DNA from: Candidatus Tisiphia endosymbiont of Sialis lutaria
GTDB lineage: Bacteria; Pseudomonadota; Alphaproteobacteria; Rickettsiales; Rickettsiaceae
Direction of reading: 5' to 3'
DNA: 64,000 bases
Assembly: GCF_964026535.1 (NCBI RefSeq)
Contig: NZ_OZ032153.1
Span: 868,001-932,000 of the forward strand
Shown here: piece after piece, positions 887-52,766 of the stretch
How the letters are laid out: each line of letters opens with the position of its first letter
Numbering within the stretch: the first letter of the stretch is position 1
Position numbers and translations under genes: made by a program
The notes under the pieces: model-generated
Database searches by the model: none
Seen by the model: only the letters and a program-made list of their open reading frames with translations
What the model was told of the DNA's origin: nothing

Positions 887-1209
887 ATTAGTTATCGTAG
901 GCAGCCTTCTAGAGCGAAGCAATCCATCATTCCCGCCCACTATTGTCATTCTTAGCAATGGTTGGGAATCTGGATCTCGCACCGAAGTAGGGATGACCCC
1001 ACAACTGTTGAAAGTTAGAAGGTAAAGCGGGTTTTAGATAGGTTTTCTGTCATTGCGAGACCACGCAAGTAGGTCGTGGCAATCCATCTTTGGTTACTTT
1101 TATGGATTGCTTCGTCGACCTACGGTCTTTCTTGCAATGACGTCAGTTTGCTATGGATAAATGCTAATCGGTTTAGCTGTATAGTCAATATTATAACCAG
1201 TAGGGAACT
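887..1209. repeat. Intergenic mosaic of palindromic repeats between rnj and ubiG
   Basis: No gene is seen. From left to right: a single end of the CTAGGAGGCTGCC family at about 889-914; a GCGGGAATGACA-type segment at about 930-998; and from 1001 the left end (ACAACTGTTGAAAGTTAGAA) of the 207-bp element found whole at 9928 and 29128. That element runs through its inner GTCATTGCGAG palindrome to about 1143 and has lost its right end. The GTCATTGCGAG part can fold into a long hairpin. Confidence 0.8.
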
Positions 1210-9777: not shown

Positions 9778-10216
9778 ATTATATTTAAAATCGGGAATAG
9801 TAATTATATTTAATTACATTCCCCTTTTTTCTTCGATTTATCAATTTATGTGCTATTTATACAACTCTGTGATAAAAATTAGCAATTAAAAATTTTTTAT
9901 TTTATAGTCAATTCAGGGGAATTGGGTACAACTGTTGAAAGTTAGAAGGTAAAGCGGGTTTTAGATAGGTTTTCTGTCATTGCGAGACCACGTAGTGGTC
10001 GTGGCAATCCATCTTTGGTTACTTTTATGGATTGCTTCGTCGACCTAAGGTCTTTCTCGCAATGACGTTGACCACATACGATTTTTAAACTATCCGGTCT
10101 AAAACCGCTTCCTCTTCTAACTTTCAACAGTTGTGAGAATTGGGTAGCAGGAGCGATGGAGCGACGCCTATAAGTAATAGGCGAGTAACGATGTCACCAA
10201 CTTCTCACCAATTGAA
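9778..10216. repeat. TATAGTCAATTGA-family element interrupted by a 207-bp element
   Basis: From 9903 the left arm of the palindrome (TATAGTCAATTCAGG) begins. At 9928 it is broken by the 207-bp element. It resumes at about 10135 with the rest (GGAGCGATGGAGCGACGCC, the GCCTATAAGTAATAGGC hairpin, then CCAATTGAACTA). The outer element therefore existed first. The right end reaches the stop codon of the 10217-10732 gene. Bases 9778-9902 are AT-rich with nothing recognised. Confidence 0.88.
9928..10134. mobile_element. 207-bp palindromic miniature element, copy 1
   Basis: The ends are inverted (ACAACTGTTGAAAGTTAGAAG inward from each side, one or two mismatches allowed), with an inner GTCATTGCGAG palindrome. 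It is flanked by 11-bp direct repeats that match at 10 positions (GGGAATTGGGT at 9917-9927, GAGAATTGGGT at 10135-10145). It is nearly identical to the copy at 29128-29334. There is no coding capacity, so any movement would need a transposase from elsewhere. Confidence 0.85.
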
Positions 10217-17417: not shown

Positions 17418-17732
17418 TTACCCTTTCATCTGATTCATATCACTCAGCTCTATCGAACCTTTATTTCTAAAATAAACTAATAATATTGCAAGACCTATAG
17501 AAGTCTCGGCAGCTGCTATTGTTAAGATTATTATACTAAAAATTTGACCCGATATCTCATGGGCATAAGCAGAGAATGCGACAAAATTGATGTTGACAGC
17601 TAGCAGCATCAATTCAATCGACATCAGAATTGTTATGACATTCTTACGATGCATAAACAAACCGACCATTCCTATACTAAAAATCAGTGCCGACAAAATT
17701 AAATAATGTTCCAAAGTAATAGTACTAATCAT
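17418..17732 (-). CDS. nuoK: NADH-quinone oxidoreductase subunit K
   Basis: I choose the ATG at 17732 (104 residues, the usual size), overlapping the nuoJ stop; the frame is open to 17756 but that would add eight polar residues. There are three membrane helices with the conserved glutamates in [17 protein letters not shown] and [17 protein letters not shown]. It forms part of the proton path of complex I. Confidence 0.95.
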
Positions 17733-18444
17733 ATTGAATTTCTTCCACTCCTTCACTTAAACGCGGTTTAACCATTAATATACAATTATCCTTGTTTTTA
17801 GCATGTTGCTTGGCAATATCCTGCCTCCTAACTCCACTACGATGCCTAATAGTTAGAGTAATACAAGATATCATTGCCATAAATAGAATAATACCTGAAA
17901 TTTGGAAAGGTAACATATATTCAGTATATAGTACCTGCCCAATAGCATGAGTATTAGAGTCAATTGATGAGAAGTTGGGAACGTTGTCGCTCGTCACTCG
18001 CCTATTACTTATAGGCGTCGCTCCATCGCTCTTAGCCCCAAATTCTCCTGAATTGACTATAGTATGGTTAGCTATCTCTGAAGAGTCCATATTATCTAAC
18101 ACTATACCTTGTACACCTAAGCAAATTATCAAAACAAGATCAGCAAACATAATGAGTGCTACAGTCATACTGATCAATAAGTTTTTTTTGAATTGTACAA
18201 TAATATCCACAAAACGAATATTCAACATCATTATAACAAACAAAAACAATACTGCTACCGCTCCAACATATATTACAACCAACATCATTGCTAAAAATTC
18301 TGCTCCTAATAGAATCATTAGCCCTGAACTGTTACAGAAAGTAAAGATCAGCCATAACACAGAATAAACAGGATTTTTACTCATGACAACCAAAACACTA
18401 CTTATAACCATTAGCCCGGCAAATAAATAAAAAAACATTTCCAT
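17725..18444 (-). CDS. nuoJ: NADH-quinone oxidoreductase subunit J with repeat-derived insert
   Basis: The protein has 239 residues against about 200 in relatives. Helices 1-4 are typical: [40 protein letters not shown] and an MMLNIR turn. Residues about 128-163 are encoded by a TATAGTCAATTGA-family palindrome ([17 protein letters not shown]), placed in the loop before the last helix ([19 protein letters not shown]). The tail ([13 protein letters not shown]) is normal. The insert keeps the frame and the loop position may make it harmless. It overlaps nuoK. Confidence 0.95.
17957..18061 (-). repeat. TATAGTCAATTGA-family element inside nuoJ
   Basis: This is a 105-bp palindrome with arms AGTCAATTGATGAG and CTCCTGAATTGACTATA and the inner GCCTATTACTTATAGGC hairpin. 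It is open in the nuoJ frame and translates to the same peptide as the copies at 3376 and 25777. Confidence 0.95.
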
Positions 18445-19132: not shown

Positions 19133-19200
19133 TATAGTCAATTGAGGAGAAGTTGGTGACGTCGTCACTCGTCTCTCCTAGCCCCAAATTCTCCTGAATT
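19133..19200. repeat. TATAGTCAATTGA-family element at the 3' end of the autotransporter gene
   Basis: TATAGTCAATTGAGGAGAAG and the opposite arm CTCCTGAATT are present, but the inner GCCTAT hairpin is missing, so this is a short form. Its right end meets the stop codon of the autotransporter gene. Confidence 0.85.
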
Positions 19201-22200
19201 AAAATTTAATTAGTCCATTAAAATAGAAAGAGTGGGTAATAAGGTCTTTTTTAAAACTATAATCATAACCAGCCCCTAGTTTAAATGGTAAGACAGATTG
19301 TACGTTTACATAACCTCCTAAAGTATATTTCACATTCTTTGCAGATGATCCTACAGGTTTTATGATGGGAACTACTATTGGGGCTTGATGTGATGTGTTA
19401 GTAAAAGTAATTACGCCTGTTGGATTATTCAGTAAAAGAGTATTGTCTAATTTGACGTGAATTTCCGGAATAATTGAAATATTTTCTACCAAAATATTTT
19501 TACTTAAACTTATTCCAGTTTCAAGTAATATTCTTTTGCCTTTCTTAGTTGGTACATTAATGTTAAACTCTTTCCTATATTCTGTAAAATTGTTTATTAA
19601 AAAATGATCAAATGTTATTCCTACTATTGGTTTGAACAGAAATTTATCTAAATCCATTTTATAGTAAGTTTCAAGTTTTGCACGTGTTACATAACCGTTA
19701 GTCTTGCTATTAATTGCAATATTATTCCGTCCTCCTTTGTTTTTAATAAAGGCTTTACCATATTTGAGATAAGAATTCAGATATATATTTGGTGATAATG
19801 TATGTTGGGTATAAATTGCCGCTACATGTAAAATAGTATTTTGCTTATCATTAAAGATGGTTTGCAATTTAGTATACGAATTTGCAAGAGCATATGCGAT
19901 TCCTATAATAAAACTATCCAGGGGTCGTGTATCAAAACCTAAAATAAAACCTTGCTGATTATTTTTAAAGGCTAAAATATTTCCTTGTTGCTGTTGTTTG
20001 GTAATAGAGCTGATAAATTGAATCCATCCACCTTTTTTAATATAATCATTATCTCCTGACGCTACCACATTTACCGTAGAATTATCTGTTAATGTATGGT
20101 TAGTTAAAGCATTAGAAATCGTATCCAAATAGTCAAATTCTATATATGTAGTATATTTCGATATATCTTGCTCAACATCAGGGTTAATAGGTGAAATATA
20201 ACTATTTTCTTCAGCTAATGTTTGAGAAGATGGAATTGCTACTGAATTTGGTTGTTCGGATTCTAAATTGGTTTGCTCAGTGCTTGAATCTGGTTGTTCG
20301 GATTCTAAATTGGTTTGCTCAGTGCTTGAATCTGGTTGTTCGGATTCTAAATTGGTTTGCTCAGTGCTTGAATCTGGTTGTTCAGATTCTAAATTGGTTT
20401 GCTCAGTGCTTGAATCTGGTTGTTCGGATTCTAAATTGATTTGCTCGGTTTCTGAATTGGCTTGTTTAGCTACTAAAGTTGGTTGTTCGTCTGCTTGGTC
20501 TGGTTGTTTAACTACTGAAGACGGAGGGTCATCTACTGGAGTCGTAGGTTCAGCTGCTATTGGCTCCTCTTCTGCAAACAATGTTTCTAACCCTAGGTTG
20601 TCTCCAAATATTTCATATGGATCAACATCTGCATTATCGTCTACAGATACTGCAGCTTGTTGAATTACTTCATGCACAGGTTTCTCAGCTGCTACATCTG
20701 TTTGTATAGCTACTGAGGTTTGTTGTTCATCTACTATATCTGTTTGTGTAGCTACTGTTTTTGTATCTGCAGTATTTGTGTGTTCAGATACTAGGGTAGG
20801 ATGGGCATCTACTGTAACCGTCTTTGTTGCTGGAGGCATATCTGTTGTTGTAGCAATTTCCATTACTGAAACTTCCTCGATTATTGGAGCCATATATATT
20901 ACTGGATCTGCCATTACTGTAGCCTTTTCTGTTACAGGAGAGGTTACTGTTACTGTAGCTGTAGCCGTCTTTGTTGCTGGAGGCATATCTGTTGTTGTAG
21001 CAATTTCCATTACTGAAACTTCCTCAGTTATTGGAGCCATATATATTACTGGATCTGCCATTACTGTAGCCTTTTCTGTTACAGGAGAGGTTACTGTTAC
21101 TGTAGCTGTAGCCGTCTTTGTTGCTGGAGGCATATCTGTTGTTGTAGCAATTTCCATTACTGAAACTTCCTCGATTATTGGAGCCATATATATTACTGGA
21201 TCTGCCATTACTGTAGCCTTTTCTGTTACAGGAGAGGTTACTGTTACTGTAGCTGTAGCCGTCTTTGTTGCTGGAGGCATATCTGTTGTTGTAGCAATTT
21301 CCATTACTGAAACTTCCTCAGTTATTGGAGCCATATATATTACTGGATCTGCCATTACTGTAGCCTTTTCTGTTACAGGAGAGGTTACTGTTACTGTAGC
21401 TGTAGCCGTCTTTGTTGCTGGAGGCATATCTGTTGTTGTAGCAATTTCCATTACTGAAACTTCCTCGATTATTGGAGCCATATATATTACTGGATCTGCC
21501 ATTACTGTAGCCTTTTCTGTTACAGGAGAGGTTACTGTTACTGTAGCTGTAGCCGTCTTTGTTGCTGGAGGCATATCTGTTGTTGTAGCAATTTCCATTA
21601 CTGGAATTTCCTCGATTATTGGAGCCATATATATTACTGGAGTTGGCATTATTGTAGCCTTTTGTGTTATTGGAGAGGTTACTGTTACTGTAGCCGTAGC
21701 TGTCTTTGTTGCTGGGGGCATATCTGTAGCTCTCTCCATTACTGGAGATGGTTCTGTTATTAGAACAATAGCTGCATGCCCAACAATACCCTTTTTAGCT
21801 GCTTCTAACTCATCTCTCAATGATAACGAATTTCTTGTTGTAGGAGGTATATCATCTAATGACTCATCTTCAGAATCTACCCTTTTTCTTTTTCTAGATA
21901 TTTGTTGTGGAGCAGTTTGATTAGATTCTGTGATTGTAGGTGATGGAGTATCTCTTATTGCTAAATTATCCAAAGAAGCATATCCTTCATCTTTCAACTG
22001 TTGCACAGGTTTATTAGGTTTCACCTGTGTATCATTCTCTACCGGTACAAACTCTTCAAATTCATTAGGTATATTTCTCCTTTCTGACTGAGCTAAGAGT
22101 AGTGACCTAATATTATCATCTAGAGCATGTAACTTAGATTCAAGGTCATCTCTTGTTTCTTTTAATTCAGTAATTTTATTTGCTTTTTTATCAATAGAAA

Positions 22201-23074
22201 TTAATAGTTGGTTGTGTTCGTCGAGTTTTTGTTCGAGCAATGGCATTTGCTCTTCTATGTCACTTATATTTCCCTGTAAATTTTTCAACTGTTCGTTTGC
22301 TACTTTAAGTTTAACAGAAAAAGTTTCTTCTGCTTCTGCAACTCTATCAAAAAACTTCCCTTGTATTGCTTGAAGTTTAACAGAAAATTTTTGTTCTGTT
22401 TTTTGACTATTATAGTCTTCTTTAGGATTAAGTAATGCTAGGTAATCTTTTTCTAGTAAATCAAGCATTTCCGTTAATTTATTTCCATCTTCAGATGGTT
22501 TTATTATTATGTTTTCTGGGTCTACTTTTTTCAATTTCTCATGAGTGTCATTAACAATAAACCATATTTGTTCCATGTTCTCTTTAAATTCAGCAAAAGA
22601 AATTTGTTCTGTTTCTTTACTATATAATGGCAAATTTTTGATCTCTTGTTGCTGTAAAATTGAGAGCATTTCTTCACTCTTTTGTTTTTCTAAATTATAT
22701 TTGTATTGCCGATCAAGTAATGATGAATACTCTATTTCTAGCGAATTAATTTCTTCTTCCAAATTTTTGCGATCATTCAATAATTTTATTTTTTGGGAAT
22801 GTTCTTGTTCTAATTTTGTTAATTCATCACTGACTTTATCAATAGCATTCCATGTTGCCTCTATTTCATTTTCAAGGTGATGTCTATGAGTAAATGGACG
22901 TGGGTGAGAGAATTGTCCTATTTCTTCATTAAATCCTACCGCCAAGACATCAGATACGTCAAATTTTTGCAATAAGAAAAATAAAAAAATAAAAACTAGA
23001 TACTTTTTTACTAAATATTTATTAACAAAATAATTTTGTAACATGCTAAATATAACCATTCCATTACCTATCAA
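19199..23074 (-). CDS. Large repeat-rich autotransporter-type surface protein (Sca-like)
   Basis: The protein has 1291 residues. An N-terminal signal region (KYLVFIFLFFLLQKFDVSDVLA, about 24-46) precedes a long coiled coil (about 60-335, many E/K/L heptads). A linker with RKRKRVD follows. Residues about 445-760 are threonine/valine-rich tandem repeats of 49 residues (MPPATKTATATVTVTSPVTE, then a PVIYMAP segment). Residues about 874-942 hold five copies of a 14-residue EQTNLESEQPDSST repeat. From about 1010 to the end is a beta-barrel domain (GGWIQFISSI, GFILGFDTRP, IIGIAYALANSYTKL, FKPIVGITFDHFL, final SFYFNGLIKF) of autotransporter type. It is probably exposed at the cell surface and host-facing, by analogy with rickettsial Sca proteins. 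A long antisense ORF over the repeats is a composition shadow. Confidence 0.85.
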   Translation of the reverse strand: MIGNGMVIFSMLQNYFVNKYLVKKYLVFIFLFFLLQKFDVSDVLAVGFNEEIGQFSHPRPFTHRHHLENEIEATWNAIDKVSDELTKLEQEHSQKIKLLNDRKNLEEEINSLEIEYSSLLDRQYKYNLEKQKSEEMLSILQQQEIKNLPLYSKETEQISFAEFKENMEQIWFIVNDTHEKLKKVDPENIIIKPSEDGNKLTEMLDLLEKDYLALLNPKEDYNSQKTEQKFSVKLQAIQGKFFDRVAEAEETFSVKLKVANEQLKNLQGNISDIEEQMPLLEQKLDEHNQLLISIDKKANKITELKETRDDLESKLHALDDNIRSLLLAQSERRNIPNEFEEFVPVENDTQVKPNKPVQQLKDEGYASLDNLAIRDTPSPTITESNQTAPQQISRKRKRVDSEDESLDDIPPTTRNSLSLRDELEAAKKGIVGHAAIVLITEPSPVMERATDMPPATKTATATVTVTSPITQKATIMPTPVIYMAPIIEEIPVMEIATTTDMPPATKTATATVTVTSPVTEKATVMADPVIYMAPIIEEVSVMEIATTTDMPPATKTATATVTVTSPVTEKATVMADPVIYMAPITEEVSVMEIATTTDMPPATKTATATVTVTSPVTEKATVMADPVIYMAPIIEEVSVMEIATTTDMPPATKTATATVTVTSPVTEKATVMADPVIYMAPITEEVSVMEIATTTDMPPATKTATATVTVTSPVTEKATVMADPVIYMAPIIEEVSVMEIATTTDMPPATKTVTVDAHPTLVSEHTNTADTKTVATQTDIVDEQQTSVAIQTDVAAEKPVHEVIQQAAVSVDDNADVDPYEIFGDNLGLETLFAEEEPIAAEPTTPVDDPPSSVVKQPDQADEQPTLVAKQANSETEQINLESEQPDSSTEQTNLESEQPDSSTEQTNLESEQPDSSTEQTNLESEQPDSSTEQTNLESEQPNSVAIPSSQTLAEENSYISPINPDVEQDISKYTTYIEFDYLDTISNALTNHTLTDNSTVNVVASGDNDYIKKGGWIQFISSITKQQQQGNILAFKNNQQGFILGFDTRPLDSFIIGIAYALANSYTKLQTIFNDKQNTILHVAAIYTQHTLSPNIYLNSYLKYGKAFIKNKGGRNNIAINSKTNGYVTRAKLETYYKMDLDKFLFKPIVGITFDHFLINNFTEYRKEFNINVPTKKGKRILLETGISLSKNILVENISIIPEIHVKLDNTLLLNNPTGVITFTNTSHQAPIVVPIIKPVGSSAKNVKYTLGGYVNVQSVLPFKLGAGYDYSFKKDLITHSFYFNGLIKF
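20249..20452. repeat. 42-bp tandem repeat in the autotransporter gene
   Basis: There are five near-identical copies of a 42-bp unit (14 codons, EQTNLESEQPDSST). Copies differ by one or two bases (for example GTTCAGATT against GTTCGGATT). The number is a multiple of codons, so gain or loss would keep the frame. Confidence 0.95.
20821..21720. repeat. 147-bp tandem repeat with 294-bp higher order
   Basis: The word TCTTTGTTGCTGG recurs at 20821, 20968, 21115, 21262, 21409, 21556 and 21703, an exact period of 147 bp (49 codons). Inner copies are almost identical. Copies alternate between CCTCGATTATTGG and CCTCAGTTATTGG, so pairs of units (294 bp) were duplicated together; the 21.6-21.7 kb end has diverged. 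Confidence 0.96.
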
Positions 23075-25080: not shown

Positions 25081-26340
25081 TCAACTAGTCTTAGCTAGAA
25101 ATTTTGTCAGAGCATTATAATACACATGATATAAGCTTTGTAAATCTCTAACTTTTGTATATTCATTAATTTTATGTGCTGTATCAGATAATAAACCAAA
25201 TTCTACAACAGGACAATAATTTTTGATAAACCTCGCATCAGAAGTACCACCACTAGTAGATAATTTTGTAGATATTTGAGTTGTATCAGATACTACTTGA
25301 ACAAAATCAGCAATTAACCCTGTTGGTTCTTGAATAAAACAATTAGCTGAAGATACACTACTTAATTCATATTTAAATTGGTATTTAGCACAATATTTGG
25401 TAACTATCTGCTCTATCAAATCTGTTATGCTAGATGACGAATGAGCGTCATTAAAACGAATATTAAACTTTGCTGTAACTTTCCCTGCTATTACATTAGT
25501 TATATCATTGCCTACATCAATAGAAGTAATTTCTAAATTTGACTGTTGAAAAAATTTACTCCCTTCATCTAATCGATAATTAATCAATTCATTAAGTATT
25601 TGAACTAAAGGATGAATCGGATTATTGGCTTGTAATGGATATGCTACATGCCCAGCTGTACCATATAGAGCTAAGTTAAAGTTAATACTTCCACGTCGAC
25701 CAATTTTTACGGTATCCCCTACTTGCTGTTCATTTGTTGGTTCGCCTACAATAGCAAGATCGATCAAATTATTATCATAGTCAATTGATGAGAAGTTGGG
25801 GACGTTATCACTTGTCGCTCGCCTATTACTTATAGGCGTCGCTCCATCGCTCTTAGCCCCAAATTCTCCTGAATTGACTAGATCTCGATGCAAATATTTT
25901 AGCATTTCTACAGTGCCATATTTGCCACTTCCTTCCTCATCACTAGTAATTAGAAAACTAATTGAACCATTAGGAACTTTAACACATTCAATGAACTGCA
26001 AGCTAGCAGCCAAAAAACATGCTATCGCTCCCTTCATATCGACAGTTCCCCTACCATAAATCTTCTCACCCACTTTACTTGCTATAAAAGGATCATTAAG
26101 CCATAATGCTCTATCACCTGCTGGCACAACATCAACATGTCCAGCAAAACAAATATTAGGACGGGCAGTACCATAAACAGCATAAAGGTTGGTTACTTTA
26201 TAATTATCTTCACCAAATATTTTGGTTTCAGTCTTAAAACCATTTTTTTCTAATAAATTACTAATATATTCAATACAACCGCTACTATTAGGCGTTACTG
26301 ATTGAAAACTAATCAATTTTTCAAGAAGTTGTATATACAT
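25081..26340 (-). CDS. dapE: Succinyl-diaminopimelate desuccinylase with repeat-derived insert
   Basis: This zinc peptidase-family enzyme frees LL-diaminopimelate for peptidoglycan. I choose the ATG at 26340 (419 residues); the frame is open to 26403, but that part lies inside the stress-protein gene. Motifs: CFAGHVDVVPAG (metal histidine), YGRGTVDMKGAIACFLAA (bridging aspartate), LITSDEEGSGKYG (catalytic and metal glutamates), VGEPTNE, GRRGSINF and LSTSGGTSDARF. Residues about 154-188 come from a TATAGTCAATTGA-family palindrome ([17 protein letters not shown]), in a loop between EMLKYLHRD and the VGEPT strand. Without it the length would be about 384, normal for DapE. Confidence 0.95.
   Translation of the reverse strand: MYIQLLEKLISFQSVTPNSSGCIEYISNLLEKNGFKTETKIFGEDNYKVTNLYAVYGTARPNICFAGHVDVVPAGDRALWLNDPFIASKVGEKIYGRGTVDMKGAIACFLAASLQFIECVKVPNGSISFLITSDEEGSGKYGTVEMLKYLHRDLVNSGEFGAKSDGATPISNRRATSDNVPNFSSIDYDNNLIDLAIVGEPTNEQQVGDTVKIGRRGSINFNLALYGTAGHVAYPLQANNPIHPLVQILNELINYRLDEGSKFFQQSNLEITSIDVGNDITNVIAGKVTAKFNIRFNDAHSSSSITDLIEQIVTKYCAKYQFKYELSSVSSANCFIQEPTGLIADFVQVVSDTTQISTKLSTSGGTSDARFIKNYCPVVEFGLLSDTAHKINEYTKVRDLQSLYHVYYNALTKFLAKTS
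25777..25881 (-). repeat. TATAGTCAATTGA-family element inside dapE
   Basis: The 105-bp palindrome has arms ATAGTCAATTGATGAG and CTCCTGAATTGACTA and the inner GCCTATTACTTATAGGC hairpin. It is almost identical to the nuoJ copy and read in the same frame. Confidence 0.95.
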
Positions 26341-26347
26341 ATTCCAA

Positions 26348-26785
26348 CTATTCTCGGACAACCAAAACAGACACCCCAGAATGCCGCACAATTTTCGACG
26401 CATTAGGACCTAGCATATAATCTCTAAGCTGTGGTCGTACTGCTGAAATAATAATTAAATCAGCTTTCACTTCATTAGCATATTGTATTATTTCATCATA
26501 GACCGCCCCTCGACCAATATGTAATTCAACTTCGATCTCCTCAGGCACATATTGCCTAATTAGCTCTGTTACCTGTACCCGATATTTTTCTTTTTGGTCT
26601 TTTGCCCAGTTTTTAGGCAAATAATCCTCGACCATTTTCATACCAAAATCCGAAATGATATAAAGAAAATGTAATTTGGCATTAAAGATAGTAGCAAAAC
26701 TTAAAGCCTTTGGTAATATTGCCTTAACCGATTGTTTATCCGACAAATCTAATGGTATTATTATATTTTTAAACACAATTAACAA
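26348..26785 (-). CDS. Universal stress protein (UspA family)
   Basis: The 145-residue single Usp domain has FKNIIIPLDLSDKQS at the start, HIGRGAVYDEIIQYANEVKADLIIIS in the middle and LGPNASKIVRHSGVSVLVV at the end, which holds the G-x9-G-S-like ATP-binding loop in a weakened form. The first codon is TTG at 26785; a GTG three codons later is an alternative. Usp proteins bind nucleotides and act in stress tolerance. The stop is 7 bp before dapE, so the two are probably one transcript. Confidence 0.88.
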   Translation of the reverse strand: MLIVFKNIIIPLDLSDKQSVKAILPKALSFATIFNAKLHFLYIISDFGMKMVEDYLPKNWAKDQKEKYRVQVTELIRQYVPEEIEVELHIGRGAVYDEIIQYANEVKADLIIISAVRPQLRDYMLGPNASKIVRHSGVSVLVVRE

Positions 26786-27882: not shown

Positions 27883-28202
27883 AAATATAATATACACTAT
27901 AACTAATTGACCACTAATACTTTTTAAGATAAATAATTAAAAAAATAATATTCTTTACCCTATCAGCAACGAAGCAATGTCTCAACGTCATTGCGAGACC
28001 ACGCAAGTAGGTCGCAGCAATCCATTTTTTATTGCTTTTATGGATTGCTTCGTTGACCTACGGTCTTCCTCGCAATGACGTCTGAGGGGCTTTGCTTCGT
28101 CGCAGCAAAACTACTTCTCGCTAATAGATAGACTTAGCTATAAACTACCCCTACTACTATCGATAATCAAGATAATTGTTACAGTGCATATATAAAAAAC
28201 TC
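27883..28202. repeat. GTCATTGCGAG-family palindrome in a gene-free gap
   Basis: A full palindrome lies at about 27982-28082 (GTCATTGCGAGACCACGC to CTTCCTCGCAATGACG, with CAATCC and GGATTG inside). The remaining bases are AT-rich with nothing recognised. Confidence 0.8.
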
Positions 28203-28838
28203 CTATTCCTTATAATATTCTTCTCCAATTTCAATTTCAGCCCGGTTATTTGACTTACGCCAATTATTGCTGTCCCTTAGTGAGTAGATACAGCCACAAT
28301 ATTCTTGCTTATAAAAATTCTCACGTTTAGCTATTTCGTACATTCTACTACTCCCGCCTGATTTTCGCCAATTATAAGTCCAGTAAGTTATTCCATCGTA
28401 ATGAGAGGCAGCTTTAATGCCTGATTCATTAATTTGATTCATGTCTTTCCAGCGGGAAATGCCAAGAGAGCTGGTAATAACTTTAAAATCATTCTCATAG
28501 GCATAAAGGGCTGTGCGTTCAAAACGCATATCAAAACACATAGAACAACGTTTGCCTCTTTCTGGTTCCCATTCCATACCTTTGCTTCTCGCAAACCAAT
28601 TTTGTACGTCGTAATCTGCATCAATAAAATTGATACCCATTTTTTCAGCAAAACGAATATTCTCATTTTTACGGATTTCATACTCTTTTTTAGGATGAAT
28701 ATTGGGATTGTAGAAAAAAATAGTTAAGTCAATACCAGACATCAACATTTTCTCCATAAGTTCTCCTGAACATGGAGCACAACAGGAATGTAATAGAACT
28801 TTATTTTCACCATTTGGTACTGATAGGATTTCATTCAT
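28203..28838 (-). CDS. queH: Epoxyqueuosine reductase QueH
   Basis: The 211-residue protein of the former DUF208 family reduces epoxyqueuosine to queuosine in tRNA. It shows [17 protein letters not shown] (CCxxC), [31 protein letters not shown] (CxxC), [16 protein letters not shown] and [10 protein letters not shown] (CxC). These cysteines hold the Fe-S cluster and the redox pair. It is non-homologous to QueG. QueD is encoded 34 kb away in this window. Confidence 0.95.
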
Positions 28839-29514
28839 AATTAGTTACTAATTTTCTTTATAAAATTTTAAAATAACATACGATATTATCGCACAACAAT
28901 TCAATAATAAGATATTGCATTGTTTGTAGAAAAACGCATAATAAATTATTATTTTTTATTAACAATAATTTTGTTACTAATTATTGAATATAGTGAATTA
29001 ACTTGAATTGGTAACGTTATAAATCCAATTAGTATTTAGCCTAAGCGTTATGGCTCAGAGCCACTTTAGTGGCATTGAAGCAATCCAAAAAGCGATAAAA
29101 ATAGATTGCTTCGTAGGCTTACGCCCCACAACTGTTGAAAGTTAGAAGGTAAAGCGGGTTTTAGATAGCTTTTCTGTCATTGCGAGACCACGTAGTGGTC
29201 GTGGCAATCCATCTTTGGTTACTTTTATGGATTGCTTCGTCGACCTGCGGTCTTTCTCGCAATGACGTTGACCACATACGACTTTTAAACTATTCGGTCT
29301 AAAACCGCTTCCTCTTCTAACTTTCAACAGTTGTGGCTTACGCCCCTCGCAATGACGTTATCTGTCATTGCGAGACCACATAGTGGTCGTGGCAATCCAT
29401 TTTGGGTCACTGAATTGCTTCGTAGGCTTATGCCCCCTCGCAATGACGTTTTTATAAAAAAGGTAATTGCTATGGACAACGTCACTAACTTCTCATCAAT
29501 TGACTATAGATCAT
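28839..29514. repeat. Nested repeat cluster between queH and the AmpG-type gene
   Basis: An AT-rich start (28839-29035) is followed by a GTCATTGCGAG-family palindrome (about 29060-29360) that is split by the 207-bp element. A second short copy lies at about 29360-29450. Half of a TATAGTCAATTGA element (CTTCTCATCAATTGACTATA) ends at 29508. No gene is seen; small ORFs are shadows of the repeats. Confidence 0.85.
29128..29334. mobile_element. 207-bp palindromic miniature element, copy 2, with 12-bp target duplication
   Basis: The inverted ends are ACAACTGTTGAAAGTTAGAA and the complement of TTCTAACTTTCAACAGTTGT. GGCTTACGCCCC is repeated exactly on both sides (29116-29127 and 29335-29346). The element lies inside a GTCATTGCGAG-family palindrome and itself contains another such palindrome. 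Length equals copy 1 (9928-10134). Confidence 0.92.
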
Positions 29515-30756
29515 TCACTTCATTTTTACTTTTAGTAATGAGCTGATTTTTAGTAGCAGAAGGAGGGAGGGGATTGTTGTGATAATAATAAATGTAAAAA
29601 AGTTTTGCCATCCGAATTGTACAACAATATATCCTGAAAGAGCTGGAAAAATCGATCGTGAAAATCCCATCATAGAAGTGAAAAACGAATATTGTGTAGC
29701 ACGAAATTTACCTTGACAAATTGAAGCAATAAAAGCAATGTAGGCTGTCATAGTCATTCCACCAGTTATACTCTCAAAACCTGTCGTAATAAAGAATAAG
29801 GGTAGATTTTTACCATAAATCTCTTGCAGAATAAATAAGGTATGTGCTATGGCATGAATTACTCCAAATATCAGCAAGCTATCCAAGATATTCTTTTTTC
29901 TCATCACTGAGCTAGCTATTAGCCCACCAATTATTGCAGATATTATGCCGAAAAATTTCCCTGCACTAGCTATTTCAAATTCGTTATAACCAATATGTAT
30001 CAGAAAAGGATTAATCATCATACCAATAAAATTATCTGGTAATCTATATAAAATAAGGAAGATTATTATTAAAAAGATTAAATAAAAAGATACTACAGGT
30101 CTCAAGATATTTTGTATAAAGTTTGAACTATTTACCTTATAATCCTGATAAGTTTGGGAAATTAAGTCATGCTTTAATCGTAAGATACTCACAACTAAAA
30201 TAGCAGAGCAAACAAGTACAGAAATGGCAAAGATTTTATATACATTATTCCATCCCAAGTAGCTTGATAGATAAATAGCACCGGAACCTGATATTAGCAT
30301 ACCGATACGATAGCCAAAAATATAAATTCCAGAAGCTGCCCCTTGAGATTCTTTGGCAATAATTTCAGTTCTAAATGCTCCTAAGACAGTATCTTTAGCT
30401 GAACTTAAAAATGATATTATCAATCCTACCAGTGCAAACAATATTAGACTATGATTAGGATCCATGGTGCTTAAAAGAAAAATAGCCAATGCCAACAAAA
30501 TTTGAATCAGACAAATCCAAGATAATCTATGACCAAGTAGCTTACTTAACCAACCTAACTTTACAGTATCAAAAATAGGAGCCCATAAAAAATTGATAGA
30601 ATAAGGTATTACGATAACAGCAAACATTCCAATAGATTGTAAATCAATATTTTCTTTAGCAAGCCAATAGTTTAAGGTATTGCCTGTAATCATTAAGGTA
30701 AATCCGCTAGTTAAACCAAACAACCAAATAATGAACAATTTTGAAGGAGTTAACAT
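29515..30756 (-). CDS. AmpG-type major facilitator transporter
   Basis: I choose the ATG at 30756 (413 residues), giving LFIIWLFGLTSGFTLMITGN as the first helix; the frame is open to 30789. About 12 membrane helices are visible. The pattern IPYSINFLWAPIFD, SSAKDTVLGAFRTEI and ASGIYIFGYRIGMLISGSGA matches the AmpG muropeptide permease family, which imports anhydromuropeptides for wall recycling. Rickettsiae have several AmpG-like genes, and some may carry other solutes. The substrate is therefore uncertain. Confidence 0.85.
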   Translation of the reverse strand: MLTPSKLFIIWLFGLTSGFTLMITGNTLNYWLAKENIDLQSIGMFAVIVIPYSINFLWAPIFDTVKLGWLSKLLGHRLSWICLIQILLALAIFLLSTMDPNHSLILFALVGLIISFLSSAKDTVLGAFRTEIIAKESQGAASGIYIFGYRIGMLISGSGAIYLSSYLGWNNVYKIFAISVLVCSAILVVSILRLKHDLISQTYQDYKVNSSNFIQNILRPVVSFYLIFLIIIFLILYRLPDNFIGMMINPFLIHIGYNEFEIASAGKFFGIISAIIGGLIASSVMRKKNILDSLLIFGVIHAIAHTLFILQEIYGKNLPLFFITTGFESITGGMTMTAYIAFIASICQGKFRATQYSFFTSMMGFSRSIFPALSGYIVVQFGWQNFFTFIIITTIPSLLLLLKISSLLKVKMK

Positions 30757-50647: not shown

Positions 50648-51616
50648 TTACTGTACTTTCAATAGTTCATTGATTCTTGTAATAGATAATCTAGTCATTC
50701 TTGCTACTTCCTCAATAGAGTTACCATTGTTTATCATCATTTTTATTAATTTAGCTTCTCCCCTAGCTTCTCCTATGGCTTCTCCTCTAGCTTTACCTTT
50801 AGCCTCTCCGATTTTGATACCATCTTGTAGTCCGATTTGAATCCCTTCTTCTTTCCATACTTGAGCTATACTAGGCATAAGTTCTTCTCCTTTTTCTTTA
50901 GTTAAACTATTTTTTAATATTTTTTCTAACTCTATTTTATCATTTTGCTCAATAAAGATCAAAGTATACTGTAATAGATTTCTTATATGGTCATAGCCTA
51001 TTGTTATTTTATTCAATTTAGGCAAGAGATAAGAGATTTCTTGCCATCTTTTCAGTAATTGACGTTCGTGGATGTGCTTGAGGAAAAATAACAAAATCCC
51101 AGACCATACTTTTTCCTTAAGTTCTTCATCGGGAATGTCATGTACGTTAATAAGCTGACAATCATTTATCCAAAAGCCTCTGGCTAAATCTGGATGGCTA
51201 AATAAATTCCATATATTGAGCGATGCGTTATATTTCTTCTTGCCATTATAAATTATTAGGGGATAAATTACTGGAAGGCGTTTAGCTTTAGGATTAGTAG
51301 TTAAATATCGATCACAAATATTAATCATATATTTAAATAACCTAAATGCCATCATTTTATCAACAGTACTTTGATGTTCCAATAGCAAAAAAATATAGCC
51401 ATCCTGATCATTAAACTTAACAGAAAATAATACATCTGAAATAGTTTCAGAAAGGTCTGGCTCAATAAAACTATCTTTTTCTAATTTTAAAGATGTACTA
51501 TCGATTAAAGCCAACACATCCTTCGGCAAATGAGTTGCCAAAAATTCTTTAGCAACTATGGGATTCTCCATAGATTTGCGAAAGATTTCATCATGTTTTG
51601 GCTTGTCTGAAGTCAT
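50648..51616 (-). CDS. Rpn-family recombination-promoting nuclease, copy 1
   Basis: The 322-residue protein belongs to the PD-(D/E)xK transposase-like Rpn family. HDEIFRKSMENPIVAKEFLA opens it. DLSETISDVLFSVKF, with aspartate, and IFLLLEHQSTVD (ExQ variant) form the nuclease core; FRLFKYMINICDRYL and VIYPLIIYNGKKKY follow. The C-terminus has a GEARGEA-type repeat and a helical end with a helix-turn-helix look (SIEEVARMTRLSITRINELL). Rpn proteins cut DNA and raise recA-independent recombination in E. coli. It is a near duplicate of 51762-52766. Confidence 0.9.
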   Translation of the reverse strand: MTSDKPKHDEIFRKSMENPIVAKEFLATHLPKDVLALIDSTSLKLEKDSFIEPDLSETISDVLFSVKFNDQDGYIFLLLEHQSTVDKMMAFRLFKYMINICDRYLTTNPKAKRLPVIYPLIIYNGKKKYNASLNIWNLFSHPDLARGFWINDCQLINVHDIPDEELKEKVWSGILLFFLKHIHERQLLKRWQEISYLLPKLNKITIGYDHIRNLLQYTLIFIEQNDKIELEKILKNSLTKEKGEELMPSIAQVWKEEGIQIGLQDGIKIGEAKGKARGEAIGEARGEAKLIKMMINNGNSIEEVARMTRLSITRINELLKVQ

Positions 51617-51761: not shown

Positions 51762-52766
51762 TTACTGTACTTTCAGTAATTCATTGATTTTAGTAATAGA
51801 TAGTCCAGTAATTCTTGCTACTTCTTCAATAGAGCTACCATTGTTTATCATCATTTTTATTAATTTAGCTTCACCCTCGGCTCTACCTCTAGCTTCTCCT
51901 CTAGCTTCTCCTCTAGCTTCTCCTATGGCTTCTCCTCTAGCTTTACCTCTGGCCTCTCCGATTTTGATACCATCTTGTAGTCCGATTTGAATCCCTTCTT
52001 CTTTCCATACTTGAGCTATACTAGGCATAAGTTCTTCTCCTTTTTCTTTAGTTAAACTATTTTTTAATATTTTTTCTAACTCTATTTTATCACTTTGCTC
52101 AATAAAGGTCAAAGTATAGCTCAATAGATTTCTTATATGGTCATAGCCTATTGTTATTTTACTCAATTTAGGCAAGAGATAAGAGATTTCTTGCCATCTT
52201 TTCAGTAATTGACGTTCGTGGATGTGCTTAAGGAAAAATAACAAAATCCCAGACCATATTTTTTTCTTGAGTTCTTCATCGGGGATGTCATGTACGTTAA
52301 TAAGCTGACAATCATTTGTCCAAAAGCCTCTGGCTAAATCTGGATGGCTAAATAAATTCCATATATTGAGCGATGCGTTATATTTCTTCTTGCCATTATA
52401 AATTATTAGGGGATAAATTACTGGAAGGCGTTTAGCTTTAGGATTAGTAGTTAAATATCGATCACAAATATTAATCATATATTTAAATAACCTAAATGCC
52501 ATCATTTTATCAACAGTACTTTGATGTTCCAATAGCAAAAAAATATAGCCATCCTGATCATTAAACTTAACAGAAAATAATACATCTGAAATAGTTTCAG
52601 AAAGGTCTGGCTCAATAAAACTATCTTTTTCTAATTTTAAAGATGTACTATCGATTAAAGCCAACACATCCTTCGGCAAATGAGTTGCCAAAAATTCTTT
52701 AGCAACTATGGGATTCTCCATAGATTTGCGAAAGATTTCGTCATGTTTTGGCTTTTCTAGAGTCAT
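51762..52766 (-). CDS. Rpn-family recombination-promoting nuclease, copy 2
   Basis: The 334-residue paralog is identical to copy 1 over most of its length, including the nuclease core. Differences are scattered and the GEARGEARGEARGRAEGEA repeat is 12 residues longer. DNA identity is also very high, so the duplication is recent or the copies are kept alike by gene conversion. Upstream the DNA differs from that of copy 1. Confidence 0.9.
   Translation of the reverse strand: MTLEKPKHDEIFRKSMENPIVAKEFLATHLPKDVLALIDSTSLKLEKDSFIEPDLSETISDVLFSVKFNDQDGYIFLLLEHQSTVDKMMAFRLFKYMINICDRYLTTNPKAKRLPVIYPLIIYNGKKKYNASLNIWNLFSHPDLARGFWTNDCQLINVHDIPDEELKKKIWSGILLFFLKHIHERQLLKRWQEISYLLPKLSKITIGYDHIRNLLSYTLTFIEQSDKIELEKILKNSLTKEKGEELMPSIAQVWKEEGIQIGLQDGIKIGEARGKARGEAIGEARGEARGEARGRAEGEAKLIKMMINNGSSIEEVARITGLSITKINELLKVQ

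Follow-up and report, generated by a model that had tools for sequence, protein, structure and literature searches.

The element at 29127-29335 of the window (the whole analysed stretch of 64,000 nucleotides, positions 868001-932000 of the 1,459,252-bp genome G000) is very probably a non-autonomous MITE whose 18-bp ends are used in trans by the IS4-family (IS4Sa-like) transposase of an insertion sequence (IS) with the same ends, moving by cut-and-paste and generating a 10-bp target duplication. This reading names the enzyme family most likely to be spreading a nested element that is common in this genome. The focal copy and its surroundings comprise the following features:

29102..29358, forward strand: host palindromic repeat GATTGCTTCGTAGGCTTACGCC...CTCGCAATGACG, split by the MITE (paralogs and empty ortholog in the same-species genome G093)
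29117..29126, forward strand: left 10-bp target duplication of the focal MITE, GCTTACGCCC (sequence, flank statistics)
29127..29335, forward strand: focal MITE, 209 bp, CACAACTG...CAGTTGTG (sequence, genome copies, flank statistics, folding)
29176..29267, forward strand: inner palindromic repeat GTCATTGCGAG...CTCGCAATGACG of the MITE (read from the sequence; matched by solo copies elsewhere)
29336..29345, forward strand: right 10-bp target duplication of the focal MITE, GCTTACGCCC (sequence, flank statistics)

The ends of the focal copy are near-perfect terminal inverted repeats, and the element folds into a single long hairpin with a terminal stem of 23 bp. It is short and non-coding, carries terminal inverted repeats and has a high copy number, as expected of a MITE. 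G000 contains about 38 copies that are near full length (206-212 bp), besides truncated ones, and the best of the other copies share 98-99% identity with the focal MITE. Within the window, the 20-bp end ACAACTGTTGAAAGTTAGAA is found at 9928(+)/10134(-), at 29128(+)/29334(-) and at 1001, which gives five matches against 0.03 expected by chance. The two copies with common ends described in the initial annotation were thus located exactly where it had placed them. No Rfam match above the gathering score was obtained at the focal site, and neither the MITE nor its partner IS (see below) matched plasmid records. The other copies in the window are:

1000..1143, forward strand: third MITE, right part lost (genome copies, comparison with G093)
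9918..9926, forward strand: left duplication of the second MITE, GGAATTGGG (sequence)
9927..10135, forward strand: second full-length MITE, inside an RPE2-type palindromic element (sequence, flanks, RPE2 alignment)
10136..10144, forward strand: right duplication of the second MITE, AGAATTGGG (sequence)

The ortholog of 1000-1143 in G093 is a full 213-bp MITE with a perfect 10-bp duplication, and on this comparison the shortened copy in the window is a case of decay following insertion.

The mobilising enzyme had previously been left open. When the end pattern and DDE transposases were searched within G000, an element with the same CACAACTGTTGAAAGTTA ends as the MITE was found, a 1,350-bp IS present in two copies (G000 coordinates):

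595094-596443: 1,350-bp IS copy
1352824-1354173: 1,350-bp IS copy, inside an IS5-type transposase gene

These copies differ from each other at three positions, and one IS end carries a T-to-C change. The MITE and the IS agree in their terminal 18 bases, in duplication length and in the terminal C/G, and the sequence common to them is confined to ~18-22 terminal bp. The copy at 1352824-1354173 is flanked on both sides by the duplication GTATACCGTG (10/10), and its uninterrupted target is present without a mismatch at 415726-415751. There the ten bases that became duplicated are followed by G, where the occupied copy has C; this C therefore came with the IS.

The IS transposase contains the signature D-73-D-115-E together with Y(2)R(3)E(6)K (YKKRWEIEVFFKFIK), and scores 126.1 bits against the NCBIfam model NF033592 (IS4), for which the cut-off is 115. 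It thereby agrees with the definition of the IS4 family, D(60-110)D(100-150)E plus Y(2)R(3)E(6)K (PMC2266710). The IS ends (CACAACTGT...) begin with CAC, and the element fits subgroup IS4Sa, an assignment made from its ends, size and 10-bp repeats. This subgroup has ends CA------T, a size of 1150-1750 and repeats of 8-10 bp (De Palmenaer et al. 2008, Table 1; PMC2266710), and the partner IS, with 1350 bp, ends CA......T, a DDE transposase with Y(2)R(3)E(6)K and 10-bp direct repeats, resembles it in each respect. Subgroups IS4, IS231 and ISH8 were rejected, their ends being -AATR... or CAT... (PMC2266710).

IS4-family transposases are encoded by a single ORF. The partner IS differs from IS4Sa in that its transposase gene is split in both copies, with nucleotides 78-251 encoding the N-terminal part and nucleotides 263-1276 the catalytic part (338 aa), in different frames and with stops between them. 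We read this as the decay of a single gene. It is unlikely that the two-frame transposase is still active, through two polypeptides or an unusual start, and that this split enzyme drives the current movement of the MITE into palindromic repeats. No intact copy of the transposase was seen in the genus, in which relatives hold fragments, and none was found in G093, a 190-contig draft in which a multi-copy IS may be unassembled. In other phyla, related transposases align with most of this region. Relatives sharing 35-43% identity come from Flavobacterium, Mucilaginibacter and Aggregatibacter; their elements carry homologous ends (CACAGCTGTTCGAAACCT, CATAAGTGTTCGAAACCT) and are flanked by duplications of 9-10 bp, which independently places the terminal C in the element. 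In addition, one relative (G008) contains two internally deleted IS copies with ~310 bp left, each with a perfect 10-bp duplication, which supports non-autonomous movement within this IS lineage. A second IS4-type transposase of G000, at 817074-817973 (NF033591 group), was also considered as the partner and rejected: the one MITE-like end in its vicinity, at 818063, points away from it, and a search for a matching partner end found none.

There is now a strong candidate for the mobilising enzyme, the IS4-family transposase of the same genome. In the mechanism that we infer, it would bind and cut the 18-bp CACAACTGTTGAAAGTTA ends of the MITE, which would then transpose in trans by cut-and-paste, a staggered cut at the target giving rise to the 10-bp duplication. 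Targets inside other palindromic intergenic repeats would be preferred, with the duplication edged by G-C pairs (G|G..C|C). The enzyme would presumably be supplied by an IS copy with an intact gene, since the gene is split in both G000 copies. Mobilisation in trans is suggested by the sequence comparison of the two elements, and the cut-and-paste chemistry by analogy with Tn5/Tn10 of the same family. It is quite unlikely that the MITE is moved by a different transposase and that the ends common to it and the IS4-type element are coincidental or ancient. The split gene and the existence of other transposases in the genome would favour such a view; it is opposed by the 18 identical terminal bases with their equal duplication length and terminal C/G, and no other transposase-bearing element with MITE ends was found within 3 mismatches.

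Insertion as a unit, as proposed in the initial annotation, is shown directly by empty orthologous sites in both directions between G000 and G093. Both checks suggested in that annotation, for empty sites and for an autonomous element with matching ends, thus gave a positive result. The focal locus (28150-30200) is present in G093 on contig 172 at ~95-99% identity with the MITE absent. This empty ortholog reads ...GATTGCTTCGGAGGCTTACGCCCCCTCGCAATGACG..., with one extra C in the C-run compared with the reconstructed site. Removal of the element had also been said to restore a continuous GTCATTGCGAG palindrome, and this holds in part: the 3' half, GATTGCTTCG..GGCTTACGCC..CTCGCAATGACG, is restored, but the left GTCATTGCGAG arm of that copy is degenerate, as it is in the empty G093 ortholog too. 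The host repeat GATTGCTTCG-GGCTTACGCC-CTCGCAATGACG is unoccupied at ~50 other places in the genome. For the reciprocal test, five sites occupied in G093, with flanks that had no match in the G000 stretches compared, were rejoined in silico after removing the element plus 10 bp, and four of the five match G000 continuously through the junction, where the site is empty:

1307620-1308129: empty G000 site for a G093 insertion, 100% over 510 bp (510/510)
450379-450887: empty G000 site for a G093 insertion, 98%
941785-942241: empty G000 site for a G093 insertion, 99%
1377802-1378289: empty G000 site for a G093 insertion, 95%

At least eight sites are occupied in both genomes. The reciprocal empty sites indicate that the MITE has moved in both lineages since these two same-species genomes diverged, with precise loss possible at individual sites. 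They also provide clean pairs of empty and occupied sites on which the insertion of repeats into repeats can be studied in a Rickettsia-like lineage.

The target duplication had been described as 12 bp at the focal copy. The flank GGCTTACGCCCC is indeed found on both sides at 29128, but the true duplication is 10 bp and the outermost bases belong to the element. Flanks were compared for 39 paired copies, two of which are the 1,350-bp IS copies, and per-position statistics were calculated for the 29 copies with at least 9 of 12 flank positions matching, a level reached by 42 of 1482 cross-copy control pairs. Positions 2-11 match in 26-29 of the 29 copies, compared with 18 at position 1 and 19 at position 12; at shifted registers, only 19-38% of the flank matches. 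The base adjoining the element is C on the left in 28/29 copies and G on the right in 27/29. This terminal C/G is nearly invariant while the outer positions mismatch, and therefore the terminal bases belong to the element. The focal target itself happened to have G and C at the outer places, so that its duplication looked like 12 bp. It is highly improbable that an unusual enzyme produced a 12-bp duplication whose outer G and C come from the target. A 12/12 flank match does occur in ~8 copies, the focal MITE among them; nevertheless, about one third of copies mismatch at the outer positions and still nearly always have G/C beside the element, the IS has C on its left where the uninterrupted sequence has G, and excision of exactly 10 bp with the element gives the 510/510 match to an empty site. 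The 12-bp duplication was therefore rejected on per-position statistics and empty sites.

The constancy of the length is borne out by 33 insertion sites, 31 of the MITE and two of the IS, at which the 10-bp repeat is perfect in 24 and matches at 9/10 positions in four. A duplication of 9 bp fits a few sites (330786, 877928 and 1277443). At the second MITE (9927..10135), the reported match of the flanks at 10 of 11 positions was reproduced, and the duplication is ~9 bp with 8/9 positions matching, the terminal C being read as T. The remark that duplications of 11-12 bp are unusually long is superseded, since the length is 10 bp and ~10 bp is ordinary for IS4-family elements (PMC2266710). Some MITE copies have no clear duplication, which is attributable to recombination or decay. 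The probability that the MITE spreads without any transposase, through recombination or gene conversion among palindromic repeats, is negligible: the GTCATTGCGAG repeat common to hosts and element interior makes recombination possible and some copies lack duplications, yet the constant 9-10 bp duplications, the exact empty orthologs and the unrelated hosts contradict spread by recombination only.

Nesting in other repeats, noted previously for the focal MITE, was found there and at most other sites. When the targets of 27 sites were pooled over both strands, G was found in 65% just outside the duplication and in 80% at its first base, with C mirrored at the other end. Between 26/33 (exact motifs) and 32/33 (one mismatch allowed) of the insertion sites lie inside other palindromic repeats, an exact fraction that is optimistic because the list of motifs was picked after seeing the sites. 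The corresponding share among controls is 5-8% for random positions of the window and 7-8 out of 62 for GG-N8-CC sites. Survivorship also contributes to this share, the repeats being mostly intergenic; we infer that the bias is due to the enzyme as well, not to selection alone. The hosts are unrelated to each other and include RPE2, the GTCATTGCGAG repeat and the TCATTCCCGC repeat. The rejoined 9928 site aligns over 102 bp, at 81-82% identity, with the RPE2 copies located in nuoJ and dapE. In addition, the same ~34-residue peptide is present in frame in NuoJ (17725-18444, reverse strand) and DapE (25081-26403, reverse strand), and the NuoJ insertion passes the NCBIfam RPE2 model TIGR03774 (44.5 vs 36.15 bits). 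Together with the gene content, the RPE2 elements suggest a Rickettsiaceae-like bacterium.

To our knowledge, Rickettsia palindromic elements (RPEs) have no known transposase. They insert in frame into genes (PMC10969869). RPEs are likewise short palindromic repeats of Rickettsia-like genomes, and RPE2 here hosts the MITE; in contrast to them, the MITE has IS-type ends and 10-bp duplications. MIC231-type derivatives of IS231 are non-autonomous cassettes that use the ends of an IS4-family element, as the MITE does. They differ from it in belonging to another subgroup (ends CAT..., repeats of 10-12 bp) and in having other hosts; MIC231 is mentioned in PMC2266710. A further parallel is ISRm22 of Sinorhizobium meliloti, an IS4Sa element known to insert into REP palindromes, its repeats being bounded by G-C pairs (PMC1525189, PMC2266710), and for which six-bp repeats were reported (PMC1525189). 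The MITE has both the palindromic-repeat targets and the bounding G-C pairs in common with it, whereas ISRm22 is a full IS with a strict REP target. The targeting of palindromic repeats by IS4-family elements and their non-autonomous derivatives are thus patterns already described, and nothing is overturned by the present case. No IS4-type MITEs in Rickettsiales were found in a literature search.

Two unusual arrangements of the MITE were observed in G000 outside the window. At 296451-296883, a tandem pair of MITEs has one 12-bp unit (duplication plus terminal bases) between its members and the same repeat on both outer sides, and could have arisen either by insertion into a pre-existing duplication or by recombination. 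At 314927-315197, a chimeric derivative of 271 bp, which includes an additional MITE end, is surrounded as a whole by the perfect 10-bp duplication GTACATAGGC; it could be the product of a longer unit's movement or of lengthening after insertion.

Other features were noted in the window. On the reverse strand, 19199-23074 is an ORF of 1291 aa that contains near-identical repeats (ATTTDMPPATKTATATVTVTSPVTEKATVMADPVIYMAPI..) and may have an autotransporter-like barrel at its C-terminus; because of the repeat, the opposite strand has a long open frame at 20778-21920. The ORFs at 50648-51616 and 51762-52766, both on the reverse strand, stand in tandem, are almost identical to each other and are putative Rpn/PD-(D/E)XK-type transposase-like proteins.
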